From an uncultured Bacteroidales bacterium (GTDB lineage: Bacteria > Bacteroidota > Bacteroidia > Bacteroidales > Bacteroidaceae): a DNA stretch of 38,940 nucleotides. This document shows, in pieces, positions 12,414 to 31,338 of the stretch; the first letter of the stretch is position 1; every line of letters begins with the position of its first letter. The stretch is from contig CADAJV010000014.1 in the NCBI GenBank assembly GCA_902788275.1, positions 1 through 38,940 on the forward strand. Reading direction: 5' to 3'. The translations under genes were made by a program, and so were the position numbers. The notes under the pieces are model-generated. The model searched no databases and was not told the DNA's origin. It was given only the letters and a program-made list of their open reading frames with translations.

Positions 12414-12484
12414 GATTGTTATACGTAATTTTAACGAAAACTTTTTTGAACACGAATTAGACGAATCTGACGAAAACGACAATT

Positions 12485-13083: not shown

Positions 13084-15870
13084 ATGAGAGTTTTTTTCAG
13101 TTTTGACTACAAGGCCGGCAAGGCTTTCCTCGGTATGAAGGGGCAGCCGGTGATGATGGACATGATGGTGACGGAGAAAGAGGGGCTGCTGGCTTTCTTT
13201 GAACTGCGCCTGGGTCTGCACGACATTCCCCAATCGGGAACGGACAGGCTGGTGGATTACTACAAGTGTGTGCGCGAATATATGGAGGCGCATAAGGATG
13301 ACGGCGAGAACCAGCTGCTTGCCAGCTACACGGTGTCGCCTCTGGCTACCAGCCGCGAGATGCTGAAATGGCGCGACGCCCTGGCGGAGTGCGGATGGAG
13401 CAAGGATACTCCGGCTACCAGCCGCAGGCTGAAGGTGCTGCAAGGCGTGGAGGAGATCTTCGCAGGGAAGGGCTACGCCGACATCAGGATGCGGCAGGAC
13501 GCCATCATCGAAAGGCTGAAGCAGGGAAAGGGCGTAATGAAGGATGTGACCTTCGTGATGCCTTTCAGCCGTGAGCTGCTGCCATCTGTACTGAAGGAGA
13601 TTTTCTCACTGGCAGAGGCTGACGGCGCACAGATTGAGCAGCTCTGCACTCCCGAGATAACGGGTGACAACAACCTGGCGAAACTGAAAAGGCTGCTGAC
13701 CTCACAGAAGGCTGAGAGCATTGAATTAGACAAGGACGACGACTCCGTGAGGATATGGAAATTCAAGGACAACATGGAGGCCGAGGAGCAGCTGGCCATG
13801 CTGGGCAAGGATGCTTTTGACGTGGCTGTCCAGCCGGATACGAAGCTGACCGACAACTATCTGCACATGATGGGCAAGCCGGTGACGGGCTCGTCGGTGG
13901 CCAACAGTGCGCCGCAGATTATCCAGCTGTTCTTCACCGGCGTGGGCATGATGGCCCGCCCCCTGAACATTGGGGTATTGCTGCAATGGCTGTATGCACC
14001 TATCCATCCGCTGCCGGGCGACCTAAGATACCGCCTGGCCGGGAAACTGGCGAGGAAAGGCGGATGGCTGCCGGAGTCTGCTGATGGAGATAGCGACGAC
14101 TGCTATCACCTGGTGAAAGACTGGAAGGAGGGCAAGGCAGAGGCCGAAAAGGGGCAGCCGCTTGACGAGAAGGAGCTTGAGAAACGGCAGCTAAAGGCAT
14201 CGGTATTCCTGCCTGACTTTGATGGCGGAAGCGAAGACACCCTGACGGTAGGGAAACTGCATCAATTTCTGACCGAGCTGGCAGGGTGGAGCAGGCAACG
14301 CTCTGCCATAATTGCGGAGGAGAACTCTGACGATGAGCGCACGGCGCAACTGTGCACGCTGGCAGACCTTTGCGACACGCTGAAGAGCCTGACCGACAAC
14401 GCAGACCAGACGGCAATGCTGGCATACAGCGAGGTGGAGAAACACATGTCCTGCCTGTATGAGCCCTCTGAGTTTGTGCAGTATAGGGCGCAGGCGACAT
14501 CGAGGTTTACGGTGGCGTTGCCCGGCCAGGTTGCCGCCAAGGCAGACAGGGTGCTGTGGGCCGGATTGCACGATTTTGAGCCGATGCTGCCTGCCACCGA
14601 CTTCCTGACGCCTACGGAGGAGGAAGGACTGAGAGGGAGTCTGAGGCTGTGGGGTAGGGATGACGCACGCCGGCTGCAGCAACAGACGCTGCTGCTGCCG
14701 CTGCTCTTCTGCCAGAGGCAGCTGACCCTGGTGACGGTGGGCACGATGGTGGGCATGGCTAACAATGAAACGGTGAACAAACACCCGATGATGGTGCGCA
14801 TTGAGCAGCAGGTGGAAAACTGCAAGGACCTGGTTAATACGCCGAAGATAGACGACGGGGCGTACAAGGCCGTTGATGCGCTGACCGACAACAGCAGCGG
14901 GCTATACTCTGAAATCAAGAATACCGACCTGATACAGTGGATGCAGAAGGAGAGTCCTACATCGATAGACAAGCTGATGCAGAATACGCTGGACTACACT
15001 ATGGAGTATATCGCGAACATCAAGGACAACGGTCAGAGCGACCTGAGCAACATGGCCACTACCAAGGGTAATGTGGCTCACGGCGTGATTGAGCACCTGT
15101 TCTATGTTGCCGATGACGAAAGGAGCGGCTATGCAGGTGCAATCAAAAAACGGGTGGAAGCCGGCTACGGGGATGTGTTTGACAAGGTGGTGGAAACCAA
15201 GGGCGCCATCCTGCTGCAGCAGGAGAATGTGATTGAGTGCCGCCAGCTGAAGGAGCAGCTGAAGGACTGCATTGACCACCTTATTGATATTATAGAGAAG
15301 AATAAGTTGCACGTGGTGGCATGCGAGAAGCCGCTTGACGGCGATATTTTCGGAGCGCATGATGATGAAACTCCCACTATGCACGGCTATGCCGACATGG
15401 TGCTGGCGCGTGAAGAAGGGCAGCGCATAATCTTCGACTTTAAGTGGACAACCTCGAAGAATTACTATCAAGGGCTGCTGGAGAAGAACCGTTCATCGCA
15501 GCTGGCTATCTATGCGGAGCTGCTGGGTGAGAAGACGGGCGACAGGTCTTTGCCCACGGCCTATTTCCTGATGCCTGTGGGCAGGCTGTACAGCACCGAG
15601 GACTTCAAGAGTAAATGGGCTGAAAAGGTAGAGCTGGCAGAAGATGCCGTTGGAGGTGACATTGTCAAAAGGATAGTGGCTTCATATCGCTACCGCCGCA
15701 ACGAGATAATGGAGGGCAGGATAGAAATGGGCGAAGGGGAGCTCCTGGAGAAGCTGCAATACTTCAACGATACGGAGCAGGAAAACCTCTTCCCCCTGAA
15801 GCCTGAGTATAACGATAAGAGCAGGAAGGAGACAAACGGATTCAGCAACTACAAACTATTCAAAGGATAA
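13084..15870 (+). CDS. AddB-like PD-(D/E)XK nuclease subunit
   Basis: A 928-residue protein whose C-terminal 270 residues form a RecB-type exonuclease domain: histidine in HGVIEHLF (666 on), GYADMV with Asp771, FDFKW with Asp785 and Lys787, then QLAIYAELL. The catalytic residues are intact. The first 650 residues have no Walker motifs but have the size and placement of the inactive helicase half of AddB. The iron-sulfur cysteines of canonical AddB are not apparent. The AddA-like helicase starts 15 nt downstream behind an AGGAGG sequence. The N-terminus (MRVFFSFDYKAGKAFLGMKG) does not look like housekeeping AddB, so I take this as an accessory paralogue. Expected role: processing of double-stranded DNA ends with its partner. 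Confidence 0.85.
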   Translation: MRVFFSFDYKAGKAFLGMKGQPVMMDMMVTEKEGLLAFFELRLGLHDIPQSGTDRLVDYYKCVREYMEAHKDDGENQLLASYTVSPLATSREMLKWRDALAECGWSKDTPATSRRLKVLQGVEEIFAGKGYADIRMRQDAIIERLKQGKGVMKDVTFVMPFSRELLPSVLKEIFSLAEADGAQIEQLCTPEITGDNNLAKLKRLLTSQKAESIELDKDDDSVRIWKFKDNMEAEEQLAMLGKDAFDVAVQPDTKLTDNYLHMMGKPVTGSSVANSAPQIIQLFFTGVGMMARPLNIGVLLQWLYAPIHPLPGDLRYRLAGKLARKGGWLPESADGDSDDCYHLVKDWKEGKAEAEKGQPLDEKELEKRQLKASVFLPDFDGGSEDTLTVGKLHQFLTELAGWSRQRSAIIAEENSDDERTAQLCTLADLCDTLKSLTDNADQTAMLAYSEVEKHMSCLYEPSEFVQYRAQATSRFTVALPGQVAAKADRVLWAGLHDFEPMLPATDFLTPTEEEGLRGSLRLWGRDDARRLQQQTLLLPLLFCQRQLTLVTVGTMVGMANNETVNKHPMMVRIEQQVENCKDLVNTPKIDDGAYKAVDALTDNSSGLYSEIKNTDLIQWMQKESPTSIDKLMQNTLDYTMEYIANIKDNGQSDLSNMATTKGNVAHGVIEHLFYVADDERSGYAGAIKKRVEAGYGDVFDKVVETKGAILLQQENVIECRQLKEQLKDCIDHLIDIIEKNKLHVVACEKPLDGDIFGAHDDETPTMHGYADMVLAREEGQRIIFDFKWTTSKNYYQGLLEKNRSSQLAIYAELLGEKTGDRSLPTAYFLMPVGRLYSTEDFKSKWAEKVELAEDAVGGDIVKRIVASYRYRRNEIMEGRIEMGEGELLEKLQYFNDTEQENLFPLKPEYNDKSRKETNGFSNYKLFKG

Positions 15871-15885
15871 AGGAGGGCATAAATC

Positions 15886-18800
15886 ATGAAGGATATAAAG
15901 AATATAACCTATATCAGCGCGGGAGCCGGCAGCGGCAAGACCTATAGGCTGACCAACATCCTGGCAGACCTTATATCAAAAGACAAGGATGACCCTGAGC
16001 ACATTGAGCCGGAACAGGTGATACTGACCACCTTTACGGTAAAGGCAGCCGGCGAGTTTAGGGAGAAAGCCAAGAGCGAACTGTATAAGCGAGGCAAATA
16101 TGACGAGGCGTCGAGGCTGGACAATGCCCTGATGGGCACCATACATAGCGTGGCGTCTGCCTTGATACGGAAATACTGGTACGCCATAGGCCTGTCGCCA
16201 AAGCAGGGCGTTATGGATGACAACGCCAAGGATGTGTATGTCAACCAAAGTATTGCCAACATTCCGAAGGACGATGACCTGCGGTTGTTTGCCAAATTCC
16301 GCAAGATATTCAATGTGGTGGATAGGGATAGTAAGTCCAAGCCTGATGAGAATTTCTGGAAAGACCACCTCAAGAGTATCATTGAGAAAGGCATCAGTTT
16401 TGATATTGCAGATTATAGTAAAAGCGAGGAAGAGTCGCTGGAGATACTGAAAGGACTGTGTGACGGGTCAGATTTCAGTATGGATTACGAAAGCCGTGAT
16501 AAAGTCCTGAATGATTTGCGCAGCCTGGTGGTGGAGGGATGTAGGGAATCCGGTAGTAAAACCAACACGCTCAAGGCTATTGAGAATCTACGGAAGAACG
16601 GCGACAGCAAGGAAGATATTGAGTGGATTATAGATTTTGGAAAGATTATGAGCGAAGCCCCTGCTATTAGGGGAACCGCAGACAGTGTGGACGAAGCCAA
16701 ACAGAAGGCGATAGACATCTGGCGCAGCCAGGAGGTGTATGACCTCCAGGAGGAGTACATCAAGACCATCTTCAGGCTTGCCAAGGAGTGGAATGAGCAA
16801 TATGCAGAATACAAGCGAAACAAGCACATCATGGACTACTGCGACATGGAGCACTATATGCATAAGCTGCTGCAGGACAATGAGGTGGCTGCCGAGATAG
16901 GGCGTACATATACCCACCTGTTTGTAGATGAATTTCAAGACTGTTCGCCCATCCAGGTAAAGATATTCATGGCATTGGCCAAAGTGGTAAAGAAGAGCTA
17001 CTGGGTGGGTGACAACAAACAGGCAATCTATGGATTTCGCGGCAGCGATACGCAGCTGACCAAGGCCGTGGCAGATGCGATTGGCAGGAAGGAGGGTAAG
17101 GACGGATGCCATACGGAGACCCTGGCAAAAAACTGGCGCAGTGTGCCGGCGCTGGTGGAAGCAAACAACAAGGCTTTCGTAAAGATATTCAGTCCTGTCT
17201 TTGGGGAAGAGACAAAGAAACAGGTTTCCCTGAAGTCGGCGATGGTGACTGATCAGGCGGAGTTTAAGGTGGAGCTGAAGGACAGGGCAAAGAACCCCTT
17301 GCGCTACCTGAACGCAGAAGGAGATAAAGCCAAAGACCTTGCCCAGTATATCAAGAATGTCATCGAGCAGGAGGGTGTCAAGCTGTCGGATATTGCCGTT
17401 CTGGGCTCAACACGCGATCACCTTGACAGAGTGCAGGCGGCATTGAAGGAAATTGGTATAGACTGCGACCGCGAGACCGACCTGAATAAGGACAGTAGGG
17501 CGTGCCAGCTGATGATGGCGCTGACCACGCTGACCGTGAATCCGCAGGATGACCTGGCCAAGGCATCAATTGCCTATCTGACAGAGGACAATATGGATGC
17601 TGGAAAGATCATTGACTCTAAGCTGGAGTATAACGATACGCCCAAAGAGGAGCGCAAGCCTTGGCTCGGCGAGACGGAGATGGTGAAAAGGGTTGACGCC
17701 TTGCGGCCGTTTGTGATGTATCAGGGCATAGGCGCCCTGATGGAGACACTGGCGGTGGAGCTGGATGTGAAGAACATAATGGAGCGTTGGGATATGCCTA
17801 TTGAGCAATGTATGACAGACGTGAAGACTCTGATTGCGTTTGCCAAGCAGTATGAGGAGCGCAGCAGTGAGCTGGCTCAGCCTGCCACTCCGTCAGGCTT
17901 TGCCGCATTTCTCAGTGAGAATGAAGTGAAGCTGCCTATTAGCGGCAACGGTGTGCAGCTGCTGACCTATCATGGCTCGAAAGGCCTGGAATGGAAGTAT
18001 GTGTTTGTGCTGATGGACTGGACAAAGGATGACCAGAAAATTCTCTCTCGCGAATTCTATGGAGTCCATCATTTCCACCCGGAACAGCCATCGGCTGACA
18101 ACCTCTATCCGGAAATGAGCATAAGGCTGCTGCCTTGGATATTTGGTACATTGAGGAATGTGCCTGACAGTATTGGCCAGCTTTTGTTTCCTTCTGACAG
18201 ATATGCCACTCTGGAGAAGCATTGCAAGGAGGAAAAAGCACGACTGCTTTATGTGGGTATGACACGTGCTGCAGAGGTGCTGGTGATTGTGCCTTGGTTT
18301 GCAAAGAAGGAACTGGATTGGTTCAAGCATCTGGGACTGCAGGGCGCCGACAAGACCAATGATAATGGCGATGTGCTGGGAATAGGGGTGAATTTTGAAA
18401 TTGTTGAGGCTCAATATCCACAAGAGGAAGAAGACAACGCTGCCGTTGAGCCCGGGCCGAAGCAGTGCCGAATGCTCGACTATCATTCTGACACTCCATC
18501 AGACGCCGAATGGCTTACTGTTGCTCCCAGCGGAGTGGAGGGCAGGGCTGACAAGGTGGATGTGGTCTATCGCAGTGAAGAGTATATCAAGATAAATTCC
18601 GGCAAGCTGCATGGACATGAGTATTCGGAAGTGGGCGACTGCATACATGATGTGTTTGCTGCCATAGAGCACCTTGAGCAGCAGGAGGTGGAGCAACTGA
18701 TTCGCTCTCACGACATGGGCGAGGTGATACCGAATGCCGGTGAGGTGATCCGCGCATGGAACAACCTCCAGGGATTCCTGAAAAAGAATTACGGGGAGCC

Positions 18801-19101
18801 TACGGCCGTCTATCATGAGCGACCCTTCCGTCAGCTGCAGGAGAATGGCACTATGGTGGTAGGCAGCATTGACTATGTCTATCGCACCCAAAAGGGAAGC
18901 ATACTGATTGACTTCAAGACTTTCCCCCAGGTGCAGGCCGTTACAGATCCTACCTCCAAGCATTACGCGGGTAATTATGCCGGTCAGCTCAACGCCTATG
19001 CCACTGCCCTCGAGGGGGCCGGTGAGAATGTGGTTAAGCGGCTCATATACTATCCGGTAAGCGGCATAGTATGCGAGATAGGTAAGGTGCTGCTTGCTTG
19101 A
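15886..19101 (+). CDS. AddA-like UvrD-family helicase-nuclease
   Basis: A 1071-residue SF1A helicase fused to a nuclease. Walker A SAGAGSGKT is at 11-19, motif Ia LTTFTVKAAGEFREK near 48, Walker B FVDEFQD at 346-352, motif III GDNKQAIYGFRGSD near 380, motif V YHGSKGLEW at 695-703 and motif VI YVGMTRA at 789-795. The C-terminal RecB nuclease keeps GSID (993-996), IDFK (1008-1011) and a downstream QLNAYATAL. Both helicase and nuclease are predicted active. It is co-transcribed with the AddB-like gene, forming a two-nuclease, one-helicase complex like AddAB. The HAD gene starts at its stop codon. Confidence 0.93.
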   Translation: MKDIKNITYISAGAGSGKTYRLTNILADLISKDKDDPEHIEPEQVILTTFTVKAAGEFREKAKSELYKRGKYDEASRLDNALMGTIHSVASALIRKYWYAIGLSPKQGVMDDNAKDVYVNQSIANIPKDDDLRLFAKFRKIFNVVDRDSKSKPDENFWKDHLKSIIEKGISFDIADYSKSEEESLEILKGLCDGSDFSMDYESRDKVLNDLRSLVVEGCRESGSKTNTLKAIENLRKNGDSKEDIEWIIDFGKIMSEAPAIRGTADSVDEAKQKAIDIWRSQEVYDLQEEYIKTIFRLAKEWNEQYAEYKRNKHIMDYCDMEHYMHKLLQDNEVAAEIGRTYTHLFVDEFQDCSPIQVKIFMALAKVVKKSYWVGDNKQAIYGFRGSDTQLTKAVADAIGRKEGKDGCHTETLAKNWRSVPALVEANNKAFVKIFSPVFGEETKKQVSLKSAMVTDQAEFKVELKDRAKNPLRYLNAEGDKAKDLAQYIKNVIEQEGVKLSDIAVLGSTRDHLDRVQAALKEIGIDCDRETDLNKDSRACQLMMALTTLTVNPQDDLAKASIAYLTEDNMDAGKIIDSKLEYNDTPKEERKPWLGETEMVKRVDALRPFVMYQGIGALMETLAVELDVKNIMERWDMPIEQCMTDVKTLIAFAKQYEERSSELAQPATPSGFAAFLSENEVKLPISGNGVQLLTYHGSKGLEWKYVFVLMDWTKDDQKILSREFYGVHHFHPEQPSADNLYPEMSIRLLPWIFGTLRNVPDSIGQLLFPSDRYATLEKHCKEEKARLLYVGMTRAAEVLVIVPWFAKKELDWFKHLGLQGADKTNDNGDVLGIGVNFEIVEAQYPQEEEDNAAVEPGPKQCRMLDYHSDTPSDAEWLTVAPSGVEGRADKVDVVYRSEEYIKINSGKLHGHEYSEVGDCIHDVFAAIEHLEQQEVEQLIRSHDMGEVIPNAGEVIRAWNNLQGFLKKNYGEPTAVYHERPFRQLQENGTMVVGSIDYVYRTQKGSILIDFKTFPQVQAVTDPTSKHYAGNYAGQLNAYATALEGAGENVVKRLIYYPVSGIVCEIGKVLLA

Positions 19102-19118
19102 TGGGACAGGAGGAGCAT

Positions 19119-19985
19119 ATGGAAACAAACAAGCGTATGGCAGACAGGAGAAATATTGATGTGGCGCTGGTGTATGATTTTGACGGGACTCTGGCTCCGG
19201 GAAATATGCAGGAGTTCGGCTTCGTACAGGCGATAGGTAAAGACCCTAAGGGGTTCTGGGAGAAGACGACAGAGCTGGCTGCCAAGAATGATGCCAACGG
19301 TATCCTCTGCTATATGTATCTGATGCTGCAAGAGGCAAAGGCTAACGGCATCTCATTGAGACGGGAGTCATTCCGGAGATTCGGAGCCATGATCCATCTG
19401 TTTGAGGGAGTGGAGCAGTGGTTTGCGCTGATCAACAGGTATGGCAAATCGAAGGGCATCAACATCAAGCATTATATCAACTCCTCGGGCCTGAGGGAGA
19501 TGATAGAAGGCACGACGATAGCAAAGAGGTTTGAGAATATCTATGCATGCTCGTTCCTTTACGATGTGGACGGCATAGCCTACTGGCCTGCCGTGGCGGT
19601 GGACTATACGACCAAGACGCAGTTTCTGTTCAAAATCAACAAGGGCATCAGGGAGATTAGCGACAACAAGAAGATCAACGAGTATGTGGCGGAAGGGGAC
19701 CGTCCCATACCCTTCGAGAGGATGATCTATTTTGGTGACGGCGAGACGGACATCCCCAGCATGAAGGTGGTGAAGGAACATGGCGGTCACTCCATAGCGG
19801 TGTATGGGGACGAGAAGAAGATGGCTACCGCCATGAAGCTCATCAACGAGGACCGCGTGAACTTTGTGTGCAAGGCGGACTATTCGAAGGGGAAGGAGAT
19901 ACACGCCGTGGTGATGCGTATCCTCGACAAGATACGCAGCGACTATGACTTCCAGCAGCTTCTGGTAACGCATCAGAAACGCTGA
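19119..19985 (+). CDS. HAD-superfamily phosphatase
   Basis: HAD hydrolase with motif I YDFDGTL (near residue 20), motif II in YINSSGL, the lysine of motif III in FLFKINKG and motif IV GDGETD. The long cap region between motifs I and II resembles the phosphoserine-phosphatase-like group. I choose the ATG at 19119 because ACAGGAGGAGC, a strong ribosome-binding site, precedes it; an ATG at 19101 that overlaps the helicase stop codon (TGATG) is the alternative. The substrate is unknown. In an operon with nuclease-helicase genes it may act on nucleotide or DNA-end phosphates, which is inference. Confidence 0.88.
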   Translation: METNKRMADRRNIDVALVYDFDGTLAPGNMQEFGFVQAIGKDPKGFWEKTTELAAKNDANGILCYMYLMLQEAKANGISLRRESFRRFGAMIHLFEGVEQWFALINRYGKSKGINIKHYINSSGLREMIEGTTIAKRFENIYACSFLYDVDGIAYWPAVAVDYTTKTQFLFKINKGIREISDNKKINEYVAEGDRPIPFERMIYFGDGETDIPSMKVVKEHGGHSIAVYGDEKKMATAMKLINEDRVNFVCKADYSKGKEIHAVVMRILDKIRSDYDFQQLLVTHQKR

Positions 19986-20025
19986 AAGAAATTATCAGAA
20001 ATTTATCAGAAATTCTGGTGATTCA

Positions 20026-20066
20026 GAACACGAATCACACGAATCATACGAATAATCTTAACGAAA
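20026..20066. repeat. intergenic CACGAATCACACGAAT repeat inside the operon
   Basis: The 93-nt gap between the HAD gene and the AlbA_2-WYL gene contains cacgaatcacacgaatcata and TAACGAAAAC, the same words as at 12540-12580. Confidence 0.6.
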
Positions 20067-20078
20067 ACCGAGAACAAG

Positions 20079-22946: not shown

Positions 22947-22947
22947 C

Positions 22948-23166
22948 ATGAAGAAGCAAGGGCGGAAAAAGACTGAGCTCTTTGATGAAGAGGAAGAGCT
23001 GCGCGAGCAGAGGGAGGCTGTGATTGAAGAGGCGCTGTATCGCACGCCGTGCTGCACGAACTGCGGGTCTAGCAACACGATGGGCGACGAGGACGGATAC
23101 ATCACATGCTCTGACTGCGGATGGGGGTGGAACCTGCTGGAGGACTATGGACTGCTTGAAAGTTGA
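22948..23166 (+). CDS. small zinc-ribbon protein (72 aa)
   Basis: The start codon lies one base after the AlbA_2-WYL stop codon, so translation is coupled. The first 30 residues form a charged helix (EEEEELREQREAVIEEAL-like), followed by a zinc ribbon with CTNC near residues 36-39 and CSDC near 54-57, ending WGWNLLEDYG. No enzyme activity is expected; it may be an adaptor or nucleic-acid-binding accessory of the operon. It is the last gene before a long spacer. Confidence 0.8.
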   Translation: MKKQGRKKTELFDEEEELREQREAVIEEALYRTPCCTNCGSSNTMGDEDGYITCSDCGWGWNLLEDYGLLES

Positions 23167-23992
23167 CATTTTTAAACCACGGATTATTCGGATAGAACGG
23201 ATTAATATAACGAAAACTTTTATTATTTGAAATTTGAAATATAGCCAAGCCCGGAGGAAGAACCAATAATCGTTATTGTTTGAAATTTGCCGCTTCGCTC
23301 TCGCAGCTCTTTTATGCCAGCCCGCGCCTGGCGCGACCACTGGCGAGCTGCTCGCGATGCCTGTGGCATTGAAATTTAGCCAAGCCAAGTTGTTTCACAA
23401 TTTGACGTTTTAGCCAAGCCCGGAGACTTTCAACTGTCAACCGTCAAAAGATTGAAAGATTGAAAAGTTGAAGAATGGAAAAAGCACTTAAATTCTTCAG
23501 TTCTTAAATTCTTCAATTCTTTGCTTGTGTGAGTTGCTGATAATGAGGTGGTTGCGGTTTGTTTGTCGCATGACTGTCTCGCGCGCGATTATATAAAATA
23601 AGAAAAAAAATGACATGACAAAGGGAAATTAAGAAAAGTTGCACTTTGGCAAGATCTTAACACTTTTTAAGACAGCTGAGCTTGCTTTTTTCGAATTTGC
23701 CGTGTAATTTTGCTCAACGATTTGCGAGTACCGGTCAGCAAAGCGCGGATAATTTTTTCTAGTTTAACACATTTTTGCCCTAAAATTTGCTTATGTCAAG
23801 AATTATTATTAATTTCGCGCCCCATTTTTTCGCAATCAGTGCAACTTTTAAAAACGTAAAAGCCGCAGAGAGTGTAGTTAACTTAAAGAGTATCAAGAGT
23901 TAGCCTTGAGCTACCCCAACCGAGCACATAATCGCCACGGTGGGAAAGAGATACGAATTAACGAGTATTAACCGATTAATTAAAAGAGGATT
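23167..23992. other. 826-nt spacer with repeats and a candidate promoter
   Basis: No gene seen. It contains the third copy of the ACCACGGATTATTCGGAT repeat (23174-23203), a word TAGCCAAGCCCGGAG twice (about 23242 and 23411), an AT-rich tract and a candidate promoter (23681-23712). The stretch 23713-23992 would be a long leader if that promoter drives the 223-residue protein gene. Confidence 0.6.
23681..23712 (+). promoter_or_regulatory. candidate promoter upstream of the 223-aa gene
   Basis: CTTG (23681-23684) and the perfect -7 box TAATTTTG (23705-23712) are 20 nt apart. The start codon is 281 nt downstream, so another promoter nearer the gene is possible. Confidence 0.45.
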
Positions 23993-24664
23993 ATGAAAAA
24001 TCTTTCTATTTTTTCTATTAAGGGTAGTGTGGAGTGCTCGATTGCTCTGACACCGTGTAAAGTAACCCGTAGCCTGGCCAAGAAGGAGCGCAGGGAAGTT
24101 GAGTCTGAAGGCTTCAAGAAGCTTCAGACACCCGTATGGACGGCAGAGCCGTATGTGCGCATTGAGAAGCAGAATATCAGGCGTCACCGTTATCACTACA
24201 ACAGGGCGTGGTGTATTGTGATCTGCGCCGGTGGTGAGGAGACGCCCATATACTTCGGTAGCAGGGCTGCGATATTGGTGTGTGTCGCCACGCTGCTTTG
24301 CCAGAAGGCTGGTAACCGCCTGTACAGGTCGGTCTTCAAGAGGCCTACGGGTAGGGTGGCTGACGAGCAGCTGCCTTGGCACGACGTGGTGTGGCTCAGG
24401 AGGTTGTATGACGTCTTGTTTCCTGACGCTGACGACCGCTTCTCCACATGGTACGGGAAGATGCAGCAGAACAGCTGCCACGAGATTAGTCAGGCCAAGT
24501 CGGTGTGCAACAGGCTGATAAGCGAGGCGCAGGGGCCGGAGGAGTGTGGCATCATGCTGGAAGGTAATGGCAACCAAAGGTATTATTGCACCAACCTGCT
24601 GCCTGAGAACATCGAGGTGTCCAGCGAGCTGCAGGACCTCATTCCCTTCGTGGAGGCGGCTTAA
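23993..24664 (+). CDS. hypothetical protein (223 aa)
   Basis: Unknown family. It starts ATGAAAAATCTTTC after AAAAGAGGA, a reasonable ribosome-binding site. The first 70 residues are basic and strand-rich. The middle has a hydrophobic helix in SRAAILVCVATLLCQKAG (about 90-107), then a WLRRLYDVLF helix. The end (ISQAKSVCNRLISEA, then a YYCTNLLPENI strand) looks like a small helix-plus-wing domain, so a DNA-binding regulator is possible. It stands alone between two large units of the island. Confidence 0.65.
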   Translation: MKNLSIFSIKGSVECSIALTPCKVTRSLAKKERREVESEGFKKLQTPVWTAEPYVRIEKQNIRRHRYHYNRAWCIVICAGGEETPIYFGSRAAILVCVATLLCQKAGNRLYRSVFKRPTGRVADEQLPWHDVVWLRRLYDVLFPDADDRFSTWYGKMQQNSCHEISQAKSVCNRLISEAQGPEECGIMLEGNGNQRYYCTNLLPENIEVSSELQDLIPFVEAA

Positions 24665-24892
24665 TGGCTTATTAGCTGAAAAGAAAACCGAGAAAGCGCT
24701 TGTCTGTGCTGCATGCTCTGCGAGCATTGTCCATAGGTGCAAGTTCAAGACCTGTTTAAGCGAGCTTAACTCAACCATGGGCAGCTTGCAGCTAAGCAGC
24801 ACAGTCAAGAGAAACCGAAATCACAGTTTAGGTTACGGTTTACCGTTTACTGGGCAGAGCGTCTTGAATCATGACTCCCGACTCAAAAAATA

Positions 24893-24935
24893 CGTATAAC
24901 GGATTTTATTATCTCGGATCATCGGCTTACTTTTG
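24893..24935 (+). promoter_or_regulatory. shared CGTATAACGGATTT promoter element, copy 3
   Basis: CGTATAACGGATTTT at 24893-24907 is followed by TACTTTTG (24928-24935), a perfect -7 box, again exactly 35 nt from the start of the element. The -33 position reads TTTT. The AAA+ ATPase start codon is 89 nt after the -7 box. Confidence 0.75.
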
Positions 24936-24948
24936 CCGCTGAAAAGAA

Positions 24949-24980: not shown

Positions 24981-25023
24981 CATGGGACTGTTTTTGTTAG
25001 TATAATCTTTAAATTTATTATTT

Positions 25024-26733
25024 ATGCCAAGAAGAATCAAGAATTTCAAGCCTGCTGAGCTGGAGGAGGAGATTGAGGAGCAGCAGGCTCTGACGAGAGA
25101 GGATATGGAGGGCCTGGATATCCTGCAGCTGATGGAGCAGGTAAACAAGGTGACCTTTGACAGCAAGCTGGACAAGGCACGGCTGAAGAGGCATGAGGCG
25201 CTGCTGACATACGTTGCTGACAAGGTGAACCTTAGTGTGAACGAGGTGATACTGCTTGCTGCCTTGATAGAGGGAGTGGAGGACGTGAAGCTGGAGGATT
25301 TGTCGAGGGCTTACGACTGCTCCATATTGAAGATACTGCAAATGAAGAAGGACATTGACTCTCTGATAGCCAAGAGGTTTATCAAGAAAAATACGCGCTA
25401 CGGCGAGAAGGGGGTGTATAACGTGAACCCCACCGTGCTGAATGCCTTCTCGGAGAACAGGCCGTATAAGGGCGAGGACGCACACTTCAGCAACGACAAG
25501 CAACTGCTGAAGGCAATCGGCAGGTCTATGGAAGAAGCCATCCGTCGTGAGAGGATTGGCGCTGAGGACTTGCTGGCCGACATCCACTTCTATCTGGACC
25601 ATAACGAGGAGCTGCCGCTGGTGGAGAAGCTGCGCAAGCTGAGCCTGGACGACGAGGATCTGGTGGTGCTGCTGATGATGCTGTGCGTCGAAGTGTTCTT
25701 CCGATGGAAGGTTTGGGACTACTCATCAGATATGGACGACATGAGGTATGGCCATCAGTTGTGGGGTGAGATATACGAACGTCTGGCAGCAGGGAATGGC
25801 AGGCTGTTTAAGGAGAAGTTTATTCAGTATCACTGCTCTGACAGGCTGGCAGACAAAGACAAGGTGGAGATGTGCAAGGGCGAGAAGCGCACGGAGCTGA
25901 TTGGCGAGATACTGCCCAAGCAGAGAATGGCGATGGACCAGGACAGGATACGCTACGCCAGCATCAAGCCCAAGCAGTTATACTACAACCCCGAGGAGCG
26001 CAAGCAGGTGGAGCAGCTGCAGGACTTGCTATCACCGAAATCGCTCAGGAAGGTCAGTCAGGCTATGGAGGCGAAGGGGCTGGGCAGAGCGTTCACTTGC
26101 CTGTTTTATGGAGCTCCCGGCACCGGCAAGACGGAGACGGCCAAGCAGCTGGCTTATATGACGAAGCGCGACGTGCTGCAGATAGACATGTCGCAGCTGA
26201 GGGACAAGTTTGTGGGTGAGAGCGAGAAGAACGTGAAGGAGATTTTTGAGAGGTATTACAGGCTTGCCTGCGGCTCGAAGCGTACGCCGATATTGCTGTT
26301 CAACGAGGCTGACGCCCTGATAGGCCGACGAATGACGGGCAACCTGAGGTCGGTGGACAAAATGGAGAATGCCTTGCAGAACATACTGCTGCAGGAAATG
26401 GAGAACTTCGTGGGCATACTGATTGCCACCACTAACATGGTGGACAACTTCGACGGCGCCTTTGAGCGCAGGTTCCTATTCAAGATAAGGTTTAACAACC
26501 CAACGCTGGAGGCCAAGAAAGCTATCTGGAAGTCAAAGCTCTCGGAACTGGACGACCGCGACATAGAGAAGCTGGCAGCAGAGTTTGACATGTCGGGCGG
26601 ACAGATAGACAACGTGGTGCGCAAGTACGTAATGGAGGCGATACTGAGCAAGGAGACTCCCAGCTACGAGGGTATGCGCAGCATGTGCCGGGGTGAGAGC
26701 CTGAAGTCGTCGCGCAGGTCGATAGGGTTCTAA
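25024..26733 (+). CDS. AAA+ ATPase
   Basis: A 569-residue protein. Residues 1-340 are a helical, charged N-terminal part without a named domain. The AAA+ module begins near 350: Walker A GAPGTGKT at 363-370, Walker B ILLFNEADAL at 423-432, sensor 1 region IATTNMVDNFDGAFERRF near 468-485 with a candidate arginine finger, and a helical lid ending near 540. In Walker B the usual aspartate is asparagine (NE instead of DE), a variant I have seen in this ATPase group, so activity is not excluded. The gene opens the second large unit, behind promoter copy 3. AAA+ proteins of this type remodel protein or nucleic-acid complexes. Confidence 0.9.
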   Translation: MPRRIKNFKPAELEEEIEEQQALTREDMEGLDILQLMEQVNKVTFDSKLDKARLKRHEALLTYVADKVNLSVNEVILLAALIEGVEDVKLEDLSRAYDCSILKILQMKKDIDSLIAKRFIKKNTRYGEKGVYNVNPTVLNAFSENRPYKGEDAHFSNDKQLLKAIGRSMEEAIRRERIGAEDLLADIHFYLDHNEELPLVEKLRKLSLDDEDLVVLLMMLCVEVFFRWKVWDYSSDMDDMRYGHQLWGEIYERLAAGNGRLFKEKFIQYHCSDRLADKDKVEMCKGEKRTELIGEILPKQRMAMDQDRIRYASIKPKQLYYNPEERKQVEQLQDLLSPKSLRKVSQAMEAKGLGRAFTCLFYGAPGTGKTETAKQLAYMTKRDVLQIDMSQLRDKFVGESEKNVKEIFERYYRLACGSKRTPILLFNEADALIGRRMTGNLRSVDKMENALQNILLQEMENFVGILIATTNMVDNFDGAFERRFLFKIRFNNPTLEAKKAIWKSKLSELDDRDIEKLAAEFDMSGGQIDNVVRKYVMEAILSKETPSYEGMRSMCRGESLKSSRRSIGF

Positions 26734-26769
26734 CGAAAACGAGAGATTGGTTTAGTCAAGGGTCATGAG

Positions 26770-26902
26770 CCAAGAGTCAAGTGTCGTGAGTCATGACTGA
26801 ATGCGAAGCGCGAAAACGCTAAACAGACTTCCGAGCGAAGCGAAAACTTCTAGCAGCAATGCTGCGATAACTTCAAAAACGCTCTCGACTCTTGACTCTT
26901 GG
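26770..26902. repeat. 12-bp inverted repeat in the gap after the AAA+ gene
   Basis: CCAAGAGTCAAG (26770-26781) and CTTGACTCTTGG (26891-26902) are perfect reverse complements, 109 nt apart, in the spacer between the ATPase and the next gene. Similar words (catgactcccgactc) lie at 24870-24885. Confidence 0.6.
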
Positions 26903-26916
26903 CAAAAATTTCATAT

Positions 26917-27561
26917 ATGGAGAAAGACTTTTTATCATCAGTGCCTGAGGGGGGCTTTCCCGAAGGGAAGATAGTGCTGGTGGACGGCACAGAGCTGACC
27001 TGCCACCCCAAGGCATCAACGCCGGGGGAGATAGAGGGCAACGACCTGAAGCTGGACACGACCGGCACCTACCTGAGATTGAAGAATAGGCCTGCGCTTA
27101 CTCCAAAGGAGCTGGACGCAGCGCGGAAGGCACACATGGAATTGTTTGTGCAGAATGCTTTTCTGTTCTACAAGAACGCAGCGCGGATAATGAACGACAG
27201 CCGTATGTTTCTGGCTCCGGTGGATATGGGCAACAACTTGGCTTATACAGGTGAGAGTGGCTTGAGAAACGCCACCCTGGGAGTCTATTTGGAGTGGTGG
27301 CTCTACAGCCCTGTCGACATAACTCATGACGTGGAGGGAGAGCCTGCCCTGACAGTGTCGTTTGCAGGGAGTCCGCTGAGCGGAATGAACTCTTGCAGTG
27401 CCGTAAGGCCTGACGGCGAGTGGTTCAACTTCAGCTCCAGAAGTTTTAGCCTCTTGTGGAGCAGTTTCCGGAAGATCAACTGCCGCTACACCGAGGCGAA
27501 GCAGATGTACGACGCTTACAGCCTGGAGGAGGTGCGACAGAAACTGGCTTGTTTTCCGTAA
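26917..27561 (+). CDS. hypothetical protein (214 aa)
   Basis: I start at ATG 26917 (MEKDFLSSVPEGG); an in-frame TTG at 26899 lies upstream inside a repeat. The family is unknown. The first 60 residues contain glycine-rich strands with a GKIVLVDGTELTCHP segment, then a helix (LTPKELDAARKAHMELFVQNAFLFYKNAARI) and a C-terminal region with WWLYSPVD and several serines. There is no catalytic signature I can identify. It sits between the AAA+ ATPase and the DUF2130 gene on the same strand, so it is probably part of the same unit. Confidence 0.7.
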   Translation: MEKDFLSSVPEGGFPEGKIVLVDGTELTCHPKASTPGEIEGNDLKLDTTGTYLRLKNRPALTPKELDAARKAHMELFVQNAFLFYKNAARIMNDSRMFLAPVDMGNNLAYTGESGLRNATLGVYLEWWLYSPVDITHDVEGEPALTVSFAGSPLSGMNSCSAVRPDGEWFNFSSRSFSLLWSSFRKINCRYTEAKQMYDAYSLEEVRQKLACFP

Positions 27562-27625
27562 AAACGTGCCTTGACACGACAAGGGAGAATGATTAACTAT
27601 TATATTAACATTAAAATTTACAGAC

Positions 27626-28948
27626 ATGAAGGAGATTAAGTGCCCCAAGTGTGGAAATGTGTTTCAGGTTGACGAAGCGGACTATGCTTCAATAGCCAAC
27701 CAAGTAAGGAATGCCGAGTTTGAAGCAGAGCTGGAGCGTCGTATGAGGGAGGCCGAGCGTCAGCACGAGACGGAGCAGCAACTGGCCGAGGCCAAGGCGG
27801 AGCATACGCTGCAGTCGCAGCTGAGCCGGAAAGACGAAGAAATCGTGCGTCTGCAGAACCAGCTGCAGGTGATAGAGAGCCAGAAAAAGAGCGAGCTGAC
27901 TGAAGCGCTGGCCAGGAAGGATCAGGAGATAGAGAAACTCCACTCCGCTATCGCCAAGAGCAACAGCGAGACGCAACTGGTATTGATGGAGGAGCGCAAC
28001 AAGGCTCACGAGCTGGAGCAGAGCAAGGACAAGGTGATAGACAAACTGCGCTCTGACATGGAGGTGCAGAAGCAGGCGGCTGAGCTGGAGAAGAGCAATA
28101 TGCTGCAACAGCACGAGCAGGAACGCCGCATGATGCAGGAGCAGGTGGACTACTACAAGGACATGAAGACCAGGCTGTCGACGAAGATGGTAGGCGAGAG
28201 CCTGGAGCAGCACTGCAGCGACGAGTATGAGTTGCATCTCCGTCCGCTAATGCCCAATGCTACGTTTGTCAAGGACAACGAAGTGGTGGGAGGCACCAAG
28301 GGTGACTTTATCTTTCGCGACTCGGAGGACGGGGTGGAGTATCTGTCCATCATGTTTGAGATGAAGAACGAGATGGACACCACCAAGACCAAGACGAAGA
28401 ACGACCACTTCCTCGACAGGCTTGACGAGAACCGCAGGAAGAAGGGTTGCGAGTATGCAGTGCTGGTAAGCCTGCTGGAGCCTGAGAGCGAGCTGTATAA
28501 CGTAGGCATCGTCAACAAATCGCACGTGCATGACAAGATGTATGTGATCCGTCCGCAGTTCTTCGTGCCGTTTATCAACATGCTGGTACAGGCCACGAAG
28601 AAGAGCCTGGAGTACAAGAAGGCGCTCGTGGCAGCGCAGAACAGGGATGTGGACGTGACCAACTTCGAGAATCAAGTAGAGAAGATTAAGGAGAAGTTTG
28701 GAAAGAACTACCTACTGGCAAGCAAGAAATTCCAGACTGCTGTCGACGAGATAGACAAGACAATTGATCATCTGCAAAAGGTGAAGGAGAATCTTATTAG
28801 CAGCGAGAACAATCTGCGACTGGCAAGCGATAAGCTTGAGGAACTCTCCGTCCGCAAGCTGACACGCAAGAACCCCACCATGAAGGCCAAGTTTGACGAG
28901 GCTCGCAAGGCCAACGAGGTGGTAGACGCGGAAGAGGTAGAAGATTGA
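27626..28948 (+). CDS. DUF2130 coiled-coil protein with PD-(D/E)XK-like core
   Basis: A 440-residue protein. It opens with a CPKC motif (residues 5-8) typical of the family's zinc-ribbon-like start, followed by a long coiled coil (about 25-190, rich in E, Q, K, R). The DUF2130 core contains GTKGDFIF with Asp227, FEMKNE with Glu245 and Lys247, and a following helix, which fits the D...ExK nuclease pattern. The end is a second helical region (about 330-425). The family is widespread and poorly characterised. It is followed after 13 nt by the macro-domain gene, so both are probably translated from one message. Nuclease activity is inferred from the motif. Confidence 0.9.
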   Translation: MKEIKCPKCGNVFQVDEADYASIANQVRNAEFEAELERRMREAERQHETEQQLAEAKAEHTLQSQLSRKDEEIVRLQNQLQVIESQKKSELTEALARKDQEIEKLHSAIAKSNSETQLVLMEERNKAHELEQSKDKVIDKLRSDMEVQKQAAELEKSNMLQQHEQERRMMQEQVDYYKDMKTRLSTKMVGESLEQHCSDEYELHLRPLMPNATFVKDNEVVGGTKGDFIFRDSEDGVEYLSIMFEMKNEMDTTKTKTKNDHFLDRLDENRRKKGCEYAVLVSLLEPESELYNVGIVNKSHVHDKMYVIRPQFFVPFINMLVQATKKSLEYKKALVAAQNRDVDVTNFENQVEKIKEKFGKNYLLASKKFQTAVDEIDKTIDHLQKVKENLISSENNLRLASDKLEELSVRKLTRKNPTMKAKFDEARKANEVVDAEEVED

Positions 28949-28961
28949 AAGGCAGAAGCAT

Positions 28962-29810
28962 ATGGTAAACTACGGACAACTGAACCGCGAGGTAATGCTT
29001 GACACCCAAAAGCACTACAGGAGCGACGCTGCACTGCAGGAGGCTGTGCGGCAATCAATAGAGCTGCAGTATATGGTTGCTCAGGAGGAGAATATCGACC
29101 AGCCGCATGCCGACGCCAGGGGCAATAAATACCTGGTGTCGGGCAAACGATCGTTTGAGGCTGCCAAGCAGTATGCCGAAAGAGGAATGAAGGTGGCGGT
29201 GCTGAACTTTGCCAACAACCACTCGATAGGTGGAGCCCCTTTCGCTGCCGGTGCACAGGAAGAGTCGCTGTGTCGCTGCTCAACACTGCTGCCTTGCCTG
29301 GTGGCGATGAAGGAGGGGTTCTACGATAGGCACAGAAGGCAGTTCAGCCGAAAAGAGATTGGCAACATGGGTAATGATGATCTTATCTATACTCCGGGCG
29401 TGGTGGTGTTTAAGACCGACGAGCGTAACTTTGTTATCCTTCCACGTTTGATGGAACGGGACGAGTGGTATAAGGTCGATGTAATCACTTGCGCTGCCCC
29501 GGAGATGAACAGGGTGCGCCATTGGCCTGACAACTACGAGGCTGTGATTGCCTCGCGCATCAAGAAGATACTTGACGTGGCAGCCAGGGAGAGGGTGGAG
29601 GCTCTCATTCTGGGTGCGTGGGGTTGCGGTGCCTTCAGGAATGATTCGAGTGTGGTGGCCAGAGTGTTTGCGCAGCAGCTGCAGAACTATAGCTTCCCCA
29701 TTGTGGAGTTCGCCCTAGCATGCAAGGAGCCTGTCAGCAGCTCGTCGCCTTTTGTGAGGGAACTGCTGAATGTAATAACCTGTGAAGCCGGAGTAGATAA
29801 AAACAATTAA
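28962..29810 (+). CDS. PARG-like macro-domain protein (TIGR02452)
   Basis: A 282-residue microbial poly(ADP-ribose) glycohydrolase-like protein. The catalytic signature GGAPFAAGAQEE lies at residues 90-101, with the paired glutamates at 100-101. It is preceded by the ADP-ribose-binding FANNHSIGG region and followed by LILGAWGCGAFRND (about 211-224), the second ligand-binding loop. Known relatives remove ADP-ribose chains or units from targets, so this enzyme should act on ADP-ribosylated protein or nucleic acid. It lies 13 nt after the DUF2130 gene and 320 nt before a NADAR gene, which handles ADP-ribose as well. Confidence 0.92.
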   Translation: MVNYGQLNREVMLDTQKHYRSDAALQEAVRQSIELQYMVAQEENIDQPHADARGNKYLVSGKRSFEAAKQYAERGMKVAVLNFANNHSIGGAPFAAGAQEESLCRCSTLLPCLVAMKEGFYDRHRRQFSRKEIGNMGNDDLIYTPGVVVFKTDERNFVILPRLMERDEWYKVDVITCAAPEMNRVRHWPDNYEAVIASRIKKILDVAARERVEALILGAWGCGAFRNDSSVVARVFAQQLQNYSFPIVEFALACKEPVSSSSPFVRELLNVITCEAGVDKNN

Positions 29811-30129: not shown

Positions 30130-30870
30130 ATGAAAAACGAATATCTGATTCTAGGGCAGGAGGAAGTGTATAAGGCCTCGCCGAGTGTATGGAGTTTTAA
30201 GAAAGTTGATGATATTGTGCACGGCATCAATCTGAACTTGTCGAATATGGCGGGTGGCTATCCCTTTATTTTTGGAAGCTGCGAGTGGGAGGATAGTGAG
30301 CGACTGTATCTGTGCGGTGAGTTTTCGAATAACACAGAGGAGCACTGCGAGGTGCAGCGTCAATTGAAGAAAGCAAAGAGTGGCTATGCGGCCAAGCGAT
30401 TTGTGAAGGCAAAGTACAAAAGTCTTGTAAGGAAGGATTTCTTGCAATTCCGCTTGCAGTGGATGCTGTATGTGGTGTGGCAGAAATGTAAGGGCAACGA
30501 GGATTTTCGCAAACGGCTCTTGGAGGTGCCGGATGATGTAGTGCTGTTGGAAAACACGACTACTGACAATGGTGGCACTGCAGATATATGGGGATGCCGT
30601 AACCGTGAGTTGGTCAATGCGCGCAAAACACTTGCCGATAAGCTAGCTAATGATAATCCCAATATGAGGAAGAAGGATCTGGAGCGCCTTATTAACGTGG
30701 AAACAAACAAGATAGACAGCATCGGAGAATGGCGTGGTCAGAACAACATCGGCAAGATACTGATGATGTGCCGGAACTGTATTGTCGGTGGAATGGAACC
30801 GACTATCGACCTTGAGTTGCTCCGAAAAGCAGAGATACACATCTTAGGGGAAAAGCTCACGTTTGATTAA
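30130..30870 (+). CDS. NADAR-domain (YbiA/DUF1768-type) ADP-ribose glycosidase-like protein
   Basis: A 246-residue protein. The NADAR pattern is visible in order: GYPFIFGSCEW (43-53), EFSNNTEEHCEVQRQ (64-78), GYAAKRF (85-91), a WMLYVVWQKC helix (111-120), FRKRLLEV and ENTTTDNG (141-148), IWGCRNRE (153-160), then QNNIGKILMMCRN (204-216). An insertion of about 35 residues (161-195) is lysine/asparagine-rich. NADAR proteins have been linked to removing ADP-ribose from guanine bases in DNA, in some cases as antitoxins of DarT1-type toxins. No such toxin gene is visible here. With the PARG-like enzyme upstream it makes two ADP-ribose-removing activities in one island. Confidence 0.85.
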   Translation: MKNEYLILGQEEVYKASPSVWSFKKVDDIVHGINLNLSNMAGGYPFIFGSCEWEDSERLYLCGEFSNNTEEHCEVQRQLKKAKSGYAAKRFVKAKYKSLVRKDFLQFRLQWMLYVVWQKCKGNEDFRKRLLEVPDDVVLLENTTTDNGGTADIWGCRNRELVNARKTLADKLANDNPNMRKKDLERLINVETNKIDSIGEWRGQNNIGKILMMCRNCIVGGMEPTIDLELLRKAEIHILGEKLTFD

Positions 30871-30918
30871 GCTACCTGAACAAAAGAACACATTTTTATA
30901 AAAATAGGAATAGCAGCC

Positions 30919-30949
30919 TTTGTTATGAAAGGTTCTTGGTTTACTTTTA
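30919..30949 (+). promoter_or_regulatory. promoter of the 101-aa gene
   Basis: TTTG at -33 (30919-30922) and TACTTTTA (30942-30949, one change from TAnnTTTG) are 19 nt apart. Transcription would start near 30956, directly before a hairpin at 30960-31014. Confidence 0.5.
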
Positions 30950-30959
30950 CAAAAAATAA

Positions 30960-31014
30960 GCAATGACCAAGAAATATACCCAGTTTTATTTGGGATATTT
31001 TGATTAGTCATTGC
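30960..31014 (+). promoter_or_regulatory. long leader hairpin before the 101-aa gene
   Basis: GCAATGAC (30960-30967) pairs with GTCATTGC (31007-31014). An inner stem AAATATaCCCA pairs with TGGGATATTT around an eight-base loop, with a single bulge. The hairpin ends 18 nt before the start codon at 31033, so it could control translation or stability of the message, or be a protein-binding site. It has no T-run, so it is not a normal terminator. Confidence 0.65.
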
Positions 31015-31032
31015 CAAAATATTAGAGGTATT

Positions 31033-31338
31033 ATGGACTATAGGCTTGTCAATCACTACTTTGAAGTGCGTGGGTGGAAGAAATACCATGTTTTCCAAAT
31101 AGGGACTCGATGGGTTAAGGATAAGCAAGAAGTGGTTTGCTCTATGAATGGGTTTAAGCTGAATGAAAAATATGTTGACGAGAGCGACATGGCAAAGCTA
31201 CTGGGCATCTCGCAGAGAGAGATTGATATGTTTGACTCGCTCAAGAGGACTGGGTATACCTGCAAGATGGCATTGGCATTTCTTGACGGTATCCGCTGGG
31301 CTGACGAGCACCCGCTCAACGCGCCAAAGAAACAATGA
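31033..31338 (+). CDS. hypothetical protein (101 aa)
   Basis: I start at ATG 31033 (MDYRLVNHYFEVRGW), after GAGG-like sequence and the leader hairpin; the frame upstream to 31000 would run through the hairpin. There are two parts: a strand-rich first half (WKKYHVFQIGTRWVKDKQEVVCSMNGFKLNEKY) and a helical second half (DMAKLLGISQREIDMFDSLKR, ALAFLDGIRWADEHP) that may be a small helix-turn-helix-like domain. No family is recognised. It closes the accessory region before the core genes. Confidence 0.65.
   Translation: MDYRLVNHYFEVRGWKKYHVFQIGTRWVKDKQEVVCSMNGFKLNEKYVDESDMAKLLGISQREIDMFDSLKRTGYTCKMALAFLDGIRWADEHPLNAPKKQ

Follow-up and report, generated by a model that had tools for sequence, protein, structure and literature searches.

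The 38,940-nt contig CADAJV010000014.1 of an uncultured Bacteroidales bacterium, analyzed here at its full length (the window; complete contig of a 2.48-Mb genome that is 87% complete), carries on its plus strand a run of twelve genes at 13084–31338, which begins with an AddAB-like nuclease pair and toward its 3' end includes a PARG-like hydrolase and a NADAR-family protein. We detected a SAM-I/IV (S-adenosylmethionine) riboswitch that divides this run into two blocks, and we consider it rather probable that the island is an accessory mosaic drawn from a recurring pool of Bacteroidales cassettes, in which a translational riboswitch that would turn expression off in the presence of SAM controls the 3' half or, at the least, the first gene behind the switch (U223). 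The island probably has a role in conflict or defence and may act against phages. As far as sequence comparison can tell, the island is not junk assembled by chance, nor does it form a single fixed system. A preliminary description of this DNA, made from the letters and their open reading frames (ORFs), had given the twelve genes with correct content and order, and we recovered all of them at their coordinates in the ORF list and by Pfam; it missed, however, the riboswitch in front of the 223-aa gene that it had entered as an "unknown". The nucleotide-sensing control that it had suggested found an unexpected counterpart in this SAM-type riboswitch. The switch and its gene comprise the following features:

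23885–23993, plus strand: SAM-I/IV riboswitch aptamer (RF01725), helix P1 formed by 23890–23894 with 23950–23954
23927–23933, plus strand: P3 loop strand CATAATC of a predicted pseudoknot, perfect 7-bp complement of 23989–23995
23989–23995, plus strand: GATTATG, the predicted pseudoknot partner, containing the U223 start codon (ATG, 23993–23995)
23993–24664, plus strand: U223, 223 aa, first gene 3' of the switch

The element matched RF01725 with 55.2 bits (gathering score 41.1, E 1.5e-6), lies directly 5' of the U223 ORF and was the sole RNA in the window at the Rfam gathering score. It shares with this family the P1-P3 fold and the pairing of the P3 loop with the 3' side, and it agrees with the consensus of the Rfam alignment at the SAM-contact positions. 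It represents a subclass, recognized by GGTGGGAA after P3, which is common to the window and the elements of three further genomes (G016, G034, and G048), whereas most other elements show GGTGGTCAA or similar. The subclass also differs in that the loop partner usually overlaps an ATG and in that it precedes NADAR, U220, X240, or AAA+ cassettes, not sulfur genes, at most sites read. Within 120 related genomes, RF01725 was found at 14 places in 12 genomes, the window counted and one place lying below the cut-off. In G016 the element stands just 5' of a NADAR homologue and in G034 upstream of an AAA+ homologue, both of which had been found independently of the RNA search. A subclass model (R1) scored the window element at 92.2 bits, the window being among its training rows.

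A scan of GTDB species genomes with a subclass pattern revealed 44 sites in 43 stretches, 41 of which are titled as Bacteroidales members (Prevotella, Prevotellaceae, Muribaculaceae, Salinivirgaceae, Paludibacteraceae, Porphyromonas, Bacteroides) and two (one metagenome-assembled genome, MAG) only as "Bacteroidetes bacterium"; the placement of the titled taxa in Bacteroidales was checked for two families and is presumed for the rest. In the 399 genomes of the window's family, a covariance-model scan, using filters that can lose weak matches, gave 47 places in 40 genomes; 31 and then 12 more were read, and those of the window, G016, G034, and G048 were covered as separate loci. Elements below 50 bits were treated as a separate group. 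They mostly stand 5' of a small protein of 85–113 aa (grouped by eye; about 127 aa at most as called), as at L185, L186, L187, L189, L190, L191, L194, L196, L197, L198, L203, L205, L206, and L207, and by eye these proteins resemble one another across several genera. About 300 nt 3' of a group-A site (L160) lies a metK of normal length, and in L079 a metK-like ORF, identified by eye, follows an ordinary RF01725 element, which fits SAM sensing. A looser pattern matched 38 places in viral contigs; as none of the 38 has an AAGAG box in the 32 nt before, these matches look like chance.

Among 39 distinct alignment rows, 99.1% of the helix cells are paired and nine of 17 pairs change on both sides, values reached by none of 500 shuffles. 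The double changes fall on four of five pairs in P1, on all four in P2, and on one of eight in P3, where five pairs never vary; P1 and P2, holding eight of the nine, do not overlap the letters that the search pattern fixes. Judged by this covariation, the RNA behaves as a real structured RNA. Contact numbering was matched via a SAM-I sequence. The nucleotides in contact with SAM in SAM-I are 6–8, 11–12, 44–47, 57–59, and 87, as listed in PMC6890682. Corresponding columns are mostly invariant in our alignment A2, but AAGAG, CCAACCGAG, and CACGGTGGGAA are required by the search pattern; of the contact columns free of it, T8 and A66 are invariant and A7 and C9 are conserved to 90% or more. The subclass would be expected to bind SAM.

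The regulatory direction is suggested by the P3 loop. The best pairing of the loop with downstream sequence reaches at least 7 nt at 42 of 55 sites (300 permutations: mean 22.6, maximum 30), and the paired strand overlaps an ATG likewise at 42 of 55; L184 was not parsed, and four sites present twice were used once. Collapsing near-identical sites left 36 of 47 with such pairing (permutation mean 19.3, maximum 26) and 35 of 47 with ATG overlap. Loop and partner strands lie outside the fixed letters of the pattern and vary between sites, e.g., CATATTC/GAATATG, CCATAAT/ATTATGG, TCATAAAC/GTTTATGA, and CATAGAGATAA/TTATCTTTATG. Not every such ATG begins a recognized gene: at X240 sites it opens a short ORF 5' of X240, or no ORF is listed. 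Because the loop pairs with the start codon and this pairing beats permutation, the subclass looks like a translational OFF switch. A SAM-I riboswitch acting mainly on translation is described in PMC7270179. In a Muribaculaceae MAG, a U220-type gene (L127, 6858–7499) stands behind a switch with a 10-nt loop/start-codon pairing.

Behind U223, the second block of the island consists of six genes, with gaps of about 360, 165, 65, 13, 320, and 130 nt before each in turn:

25024–26733, plus strand: AAA+ ATPase, 569 aa (Pfam AAA, 5e-25)
26899–27561, plus strand: U220, family recurring behind the switch (17-row alignment A3)
27626–28948, plus strand: DUF2130 protein, 440 aa (Pfam, 8.6e-80)
28962–29810, plus strand: microbial PARG-like hydrolase (TIGR02452; Pfam PARG_cat_microb, 1.1e-24)
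30130–30870, plus strand: NADAR-family protein, 246 aa (Pfam 5.2e-8, 33.8 bits, cut-off 35.1)
31000–31338, plus strand: U112, small protein, 112 aa (only Pfam match 0.085, below cut-off)

Genes of this block recur behind switches in other genomes. At 24 of 38 sites, a homologue of U220 (13 sites), NADAR (10), or AAA+ (four) lies within 1.5 kb 3' on the same strand, counted with single window proteins as queries and for sites with at least 700 nt downstream, vs five of 34 sites in the upstream control (Fisher p 3.3e-5). Six of the 44 pattern sites had been dropped for shorter downstream sequence (L135, L139, L145, L156, L164, L166), four of them carrying genes of this recurring suite; the window and three duplicate loci (L023, L076, L077) were also left out. 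Some rows are near-identical Salinivirgaceae sites, and site counts do not equal independent events. Family profiles restricted to window-gene families found 28 of 38 sites, and all recurrent families together 34 of 38, a circular figure as these families were defined from the same sites. Besides X240 (seven sites), they comprise an HNH protein, a 222-aa family, and SprT-like, N-formylglutamate-amidohydrolase-like, and SAM-synthetase proteins; an ADP-ribosylglycohydrolase (L155) and a metallophosphoesterase (L130) are single cases. Of the sites read from the covariance scan that have 2 kb or more of downstream sequence, those with a suite gene in the first 4 kb number eight of 12 above 60 bits (four of the 12 also in the pattern set), two of three with 50–60 bits, and, below 50 bits, one of 14 plus one of nine further sites. 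In L140, PARG (2.6 kb upstream) and SprT stand on one side of the switch, X240 and AAA+ on the other. The set is thus more than a chance assembly, as the preliminary description had proposed: NADAR, U220, and AAA+, and more weakly U223/X240, recur in Bacteroidales, often behind the switch.

Several further observations concern these switch-led cassettes. A second, divergent SAM synthetase gene occurs in L165, L162, L150, L138, and L168 (Pfam run on the L165 copy). Short NADAR-like ORFs directly 3' of the switch have the appearance of decayed copies (first ORFs after the switch in L152, L172, and L178/L179; L157, 5464–5670), and some of these loci also contain intact copies next to them. A serine resolvase (L132, Pfam) and a resolvase-like recombinase (L177, by eye) near cassettes suggest a mobile element. 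A phage-borne suite was considered and rejected: AddB and U220 have no relatives in viral contigs, U220 has none in phages or plasmids either, and the viral switch matches lack the AAGAG box.

Neither U223 nor U220 matched a Pfam family at E 0.1, and the structure model of a U220 relative (mean predicted local distance difference test score, pLDDT, of 83) had no match at E<=0.001 in PDB or BFVD. U223 probably belongs to the X240 family as a divergent member, on the evidence of small profile searches (3e-4 to 1e-6) and an hhalign probability of 64%, a weak to moderate signal, complemented by a bridge: a 462-aa protein of L010 matches U223 (1.6e-18) as well as a 465-aa protein of L230 (1.6e-6), and the latter matches X240 proteins down to 4e-47. 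The same locus L010 (genome G060) contains U223-like, AAA+, U220, and U112 genes in the window's order (U112 at 4e-26), with no AddAB in the 20 kb read. Single-sequence searches of the 120 relatives, window included, found U223 in two, U220 in three, and NADAR in four. Relatives of the AAA+ protein stand behind the switch in some cases and adjoin a WYL gene in five Pfam-tested loci (L014, L015, L016, L022, L027). Its domain resembles IetA (96 bits, PADLOC), but it reaches 90.7 bits at a cut-off of 510 for the IetA equivalog. IetAS has a serine-protease partner, and none of the twelve genes had a protease Pfam match. An AAA+ paralogue lies beside two GmrSD-type genes in the window's own genome (G000:C6, L018).

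The first block, tightly packed at 13084–23166, is followed by a gap of ~720 nt after its last gene, then by the RNA element and U223. It contains:

13084–15870, plus strand: AddB-like PD-(D/E)XK protein, 928 aa (Pfam PDDEXK_1, 1.9e-10)
15886–19101, plus strand: AddA-like UvrD helicase-nuclease, 1071 aa (Pfam UvrD-helicase 1.7e-43, PDDEXK_1 1.1e-4)
19098–19985, plus strand: HAD phosphatase, PADLOC candidate PDC-S34 (Pfam 1.1e-9; PADLOC E 2.9e-123)
20079–22946, plus strand: AlbA_2-WYL protein, 955 aa (Pfam, PADLOC)
22948–23166, plus strand: small zinc-ribbon-like protein, 72 aa (weak Pfam matches, below cut-off)

Motifs of AddA (GAGSGKT, FVDEFQD, LIDFK), AddB (GNVAH, IFDFKW, QLAIY), the HAD protein (DFDGT, GDGETD), and PARG (GAPFAAGAQEE) look intact, with positions read from the sequence. 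The order of AddB-like nuclease and AddA-like helicase-nuclease resembles AddAB/RecBCD. It differs from housekeeping AddAB in that the window AddA stays below the AddA equivalog level (191 bits against addA_Gpos of NCBIfam, cut-off 708) and in its patchy, plasmid-borne relatives, some beside WYL genes; AddB had no NCBIfam match. A single-sequence AddB search of the 120 relatives returned the window and one 18-bit match with stops. Outside this set, AddB-like proteins occur in 20 plasmid records; in the five regions read, AddA always lies 3' of AddB, two with a divergent upstream WYL gene. Identity of the window AddB is 32% to the AddB of L161, and 21 and 23% to two plasmid proteins.

A more sensitive four-row AddB profile, run on 52 switch-bearing genomes, matched 16, two of them marginally; leaving out these two and a fragment in G456, 13 AddB regions were examined. 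These genomes were picked for bearing a switch and several contigs are short (4–12 kb), and the rates are no general frequency. Adjacent AddB (PD-(D/E)XK) and AddA (UvrD) genes were found in the window, in 13 of 13 relative regions (AddB of L226 placed by profile search), and in the five plasmids. In the neighbourhood comparison proposed by the preliminary description for AddB and AlbA_2-WYL, suite genes stood near AddAB in six of the 13 regions: L226 (AAA), L227 (NADAR), L228 (AAA, U220, NADAR), L229 (SprT), L230 (AAA, X240, NADAR), and L232 (U220, SprT), with L228, L230, and L232 showing the recurrence of AddAB with other island genes; AlbA_2-WYL travels separately. The Porphyromonas MAG of L232, the only one of the 13 regions with an R1 match, shows the order switch-U220-SprT-AddB-AddA. 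In L228 (Prevotella pectinovora genome), an ADP-ribosyltransferase (ART)-like gene is followed by NADAR, AddB, and AddA. L230, from the window's family, has on one strand ART-like, NADAR, a 785-aa protein with a C-terminal ADP-ribosylglycohydrolase domain, PfkB, AddB, AddA, a small ORF, HAD, and AAA+. L227 (Prevotellaceae MAG) reads ART-like, NADAR, four reverse-strand ORFs, a homologue of the 785-aa protein, AddB, and AddA. A role of the switch as driver of AddAB expression in the window was rejected, with AddAB located upstream and R1 finding no second copy in the window.

The window PARG exceeds the TIGR02452 cut-off clearly (144 bits vs 50), and its NADAR belongs to the superfamily of the anti-phage protein DS32_2 (NCBIfam NF053876) but reaches 52.3 bits at a cut-off of 240. 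According to PMC11833690, NADAR removes ADP-ribose from guanosine bases and PARG from RNA 2'-OH, and ART-NADAR pairs act as toxin-antitoxin systems (PMC11125620). With DarT-NADAR and YarT-YbiA toxin-antitoxin pairs the island shares a probable NADAR-family eraser, and in relatives an ART-like gene adjoins it. It differs in that no ART was detected in the window, while relatives have the pair beside AddAB: no ORF of at least 60 aa in the window matches three ART-like proteins of relatives, and there was no ART Pfam match among 20 window proteins scanned. The ART calls stem from weak Pfam matches (DUF3990, ART-PolyVal, PARP; best 7e-6, all below cut-off), and no relatives were found in plasmids. 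Located beside NADAR and close to AddAB, the ART-like protein of relatives is a candidate for the missing ADP-ribose writer. PMC13092281 names NADAR and HAD domains among its defence proteins, and PMC9503650, which treats NADAR in viruses, mentions neither AddAB nor a riboswitch.

The remaining genes of the first block have their own histories. The HAD gene overlaps the AddA 3' end by 4 nt and is placed inside an AddAB operon, unlike PDC-S34, which it strongly matches in PADLOC (no cut-off shown) and whose S denotes a single-gene candidate. HAD homologues exist in 13 other hosts among the 120 relatives (one a marginal match at 7e-4 that contains stops). The single-sequence search detected AddB in none of these hosts, and the homologues have MmeI, SecA, Lon, and Mur ligase genes, for example, as neighbours; the HAD gene beside AddAB in L230 is unrelated to that of the window (phmmer). 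The AlbA_2-WYL protein (SLFN_AlbA_2 7e-12; WYL 6.5e-4, 20.1 bits, cut-off 21.8) is itself a mosaic: its WYL part aligns with ~300-aa ORFs at 25–36% identity, and its middle part resembles AlbA_2 proteins of ~1,240–1,340 aa, two of which lie ~1.1 and 1.5 kb upstream of AAA+ (L011, L009). HAD, DUF2130, and AlbA_2-WYL travel separately.

Upstream of the island lies a GmrSD gene (Pfam), near which ORFs resemble, by eye only, DNA methyltransferase and HNH genes. Three copies of an intergenic repeat of 31 nt (D5) stand 64–172 nt 5' of GmrSD, AddB, and AAA+:

8132–8162, plus strand: D5 copy 1, upstream of GmrSD
12990–13020: D5 copy 2, upstream of AddB
24884–24914: D5 copy 3, upstream of AAA+

Its 14-nt core, searched with a pattern derived from the repeat itself, was present in only five of 232 loci, all from the window's own contig. 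The repeat hints at a cassette-wise assembly, and a shared promoter or a cassette border is possible. Other 50-nt intergenic repeats (ACCACGGATTATTCGGAT...) at 12482–12749, 20019–20068, and 23168–23217 flank the AddB-to-zinc-ribbon block, and an array of short repeat units lies at about 12842–12995. At the island edge, a response regulator-PglZ protein is encoded on the minus strand (34914–36764, Pfam).

A number of findings weigh against a cassette mosaic with a switch-controlled 3' half. The gaps of ~360, 165, and 320 nt after U223, AAA+, and PARG leave room for separate transcripts, so that the switch may govern U223 only, and the AddAB operon lies 5' of it. Single-sequence queries with U223, PARG, DUF2130, and U112 were positive at none of the 38 sites, and R1 does not match the L010 cassette. 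The invariance of P3 and of most pocket letters stems in part from letters fixed by the search pattern, and 13 of the 55 loop pairings do not overlap an ATG. Nor is there a suite gene near the three closest AddB relatives (L220–L222), two of which have a WYL gene directly upstream. Against one fixed system, in turn, the five plasmid AddAB loci are devoid of homologues of the window HAD, PARG, and NADAR, and seven of the 13 AddB regions, some on short contigs, hold no suite gene. A strict one-system reading was rejected on account of the 13 other HAD hosts, which lack an AddB match in the single-sequence search, and of the different neighbours of their HAD genes.

An ordinary defence island, in which independent systems (GmrSD, restriction-modification, AddAB-WYL, HAD, AAA+, and ADP-ribose genes) gathered by chance and the switch regulates one captured gene without any coupling, is in our view somewhat unlikely. 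It would account for the other neighbours that HAD, PARG, NADAR, and AlbA_2-WYL homologues have in relatives, and for the bare plasmid loci and AddB regions; it does not account for the recurrence of U220, NADAR, and AAA+ behind a single RNA subclass at a rate well beyond that of the upstream control, for X240 at seven sites, or for the six AddB regions with suite genes. Rather unlikely, too, is a metabolic or repair regulon, whose SAM-responsive cassettes would, under methionine stress, serve SAM supply and clear RNA or protein of ADP-ribose damage. The second SAM synthetase, N-formylglutamate-amidohydrolase-like, ADP-ribosylglycohydrolase, and metallophosphoesterase genes of switch-led loci speak for it, as does the role of SAM riboswitches as regulators of sulfur metabolism (described in PMC6890682), but the patchy distribution over 40 of 399 family genomes, the serine resolvase beside the L132 cassette, and HNH, AAA+, and AddAB as neighbours do not.

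The model of the preliminary description, in which AddAB degrades DNA ends, ADP-ribosylation marks or guards nucleic acid, and the erasers serve as antitoxins, appears more doubtful still. In its favour, ART-like and NADAR genes precede AddB-AddA in L228, in L230 with the ADP-ribosylglycohydrolase and PfkB genes in between, and in L227 ahead of a separate ADP-ribosylglycohydrolase-AddB-AddA set. The weakness of the ART calls counts against it, and as the window has no detected ART and ADP-ribose genes occur in three of the 13 AddB regions only, any coupling of DNA-end degradation to ADP-ribose marking is an inference.

For the mosaic with a SAM-controlled 3' half, we propose the following mechanism. 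When SAM is plentiful, the aptamer would fold around it and the P3 loop would pair with the U223 start-codon region, hiding the AUG; once SAM falls, the start codon would be freed and the cassette made. Starvation for methionine, extensive methylation, or a SAM-degrading enzyme of a phage might cause such a fall. Enzymes of this kind are encoded by phages. Phage-encoded SAM-degrading proteins raise methionine-pathway expression by degrading SAM, as reported in PMC7877911, which makes infection a plausible trigger, methionine starvation being another. Of the neighbouring proteins, AddAB could then work on nucleic acid ends and PARG and NADAR on ADP-ribose adducts, and in some relatives the ART-like protein could supply the mark. 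A tentative and rather improbable extension is metabolite-sensing immunity. Across a mobile regulon of Bacteroidales, SAM-I/IV switches would mask the start codons of a set of conflict genes (NADAR, U220, X240, AAA+, and a spare SAM synthetase, with AddAB alongside), and a fall of SAM would signal infection. A phage SAM-degrading enzyme, for example, would then switch the island on and SAM would be refilled. A search of open full-text papers, subscription papers and preprints lying outside it, gave none on both SAM riboswitches and phage defence, and none of the titles listed connected riboswitches with NADAR, ADP-ribosylation, toxin-antitoxin systems, or defense islands; in PMC11481870, an inducible riboswitch serves as a tool.

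While metabolic control is the known role of riboswitches, one that repeatedly precedes ADP-ribose, AAA+, and unnamed genes in Bacteroidales, in some cases accompanied by nuclease genes, would tie the SAM status of the cell to a pool of conflict genes and would give a testable trigger for the unnamed families U220 and X240/U223. In addition, AddAB-like pairs and ADP-ribose writer-like and eraser genes meet more than once within this group.

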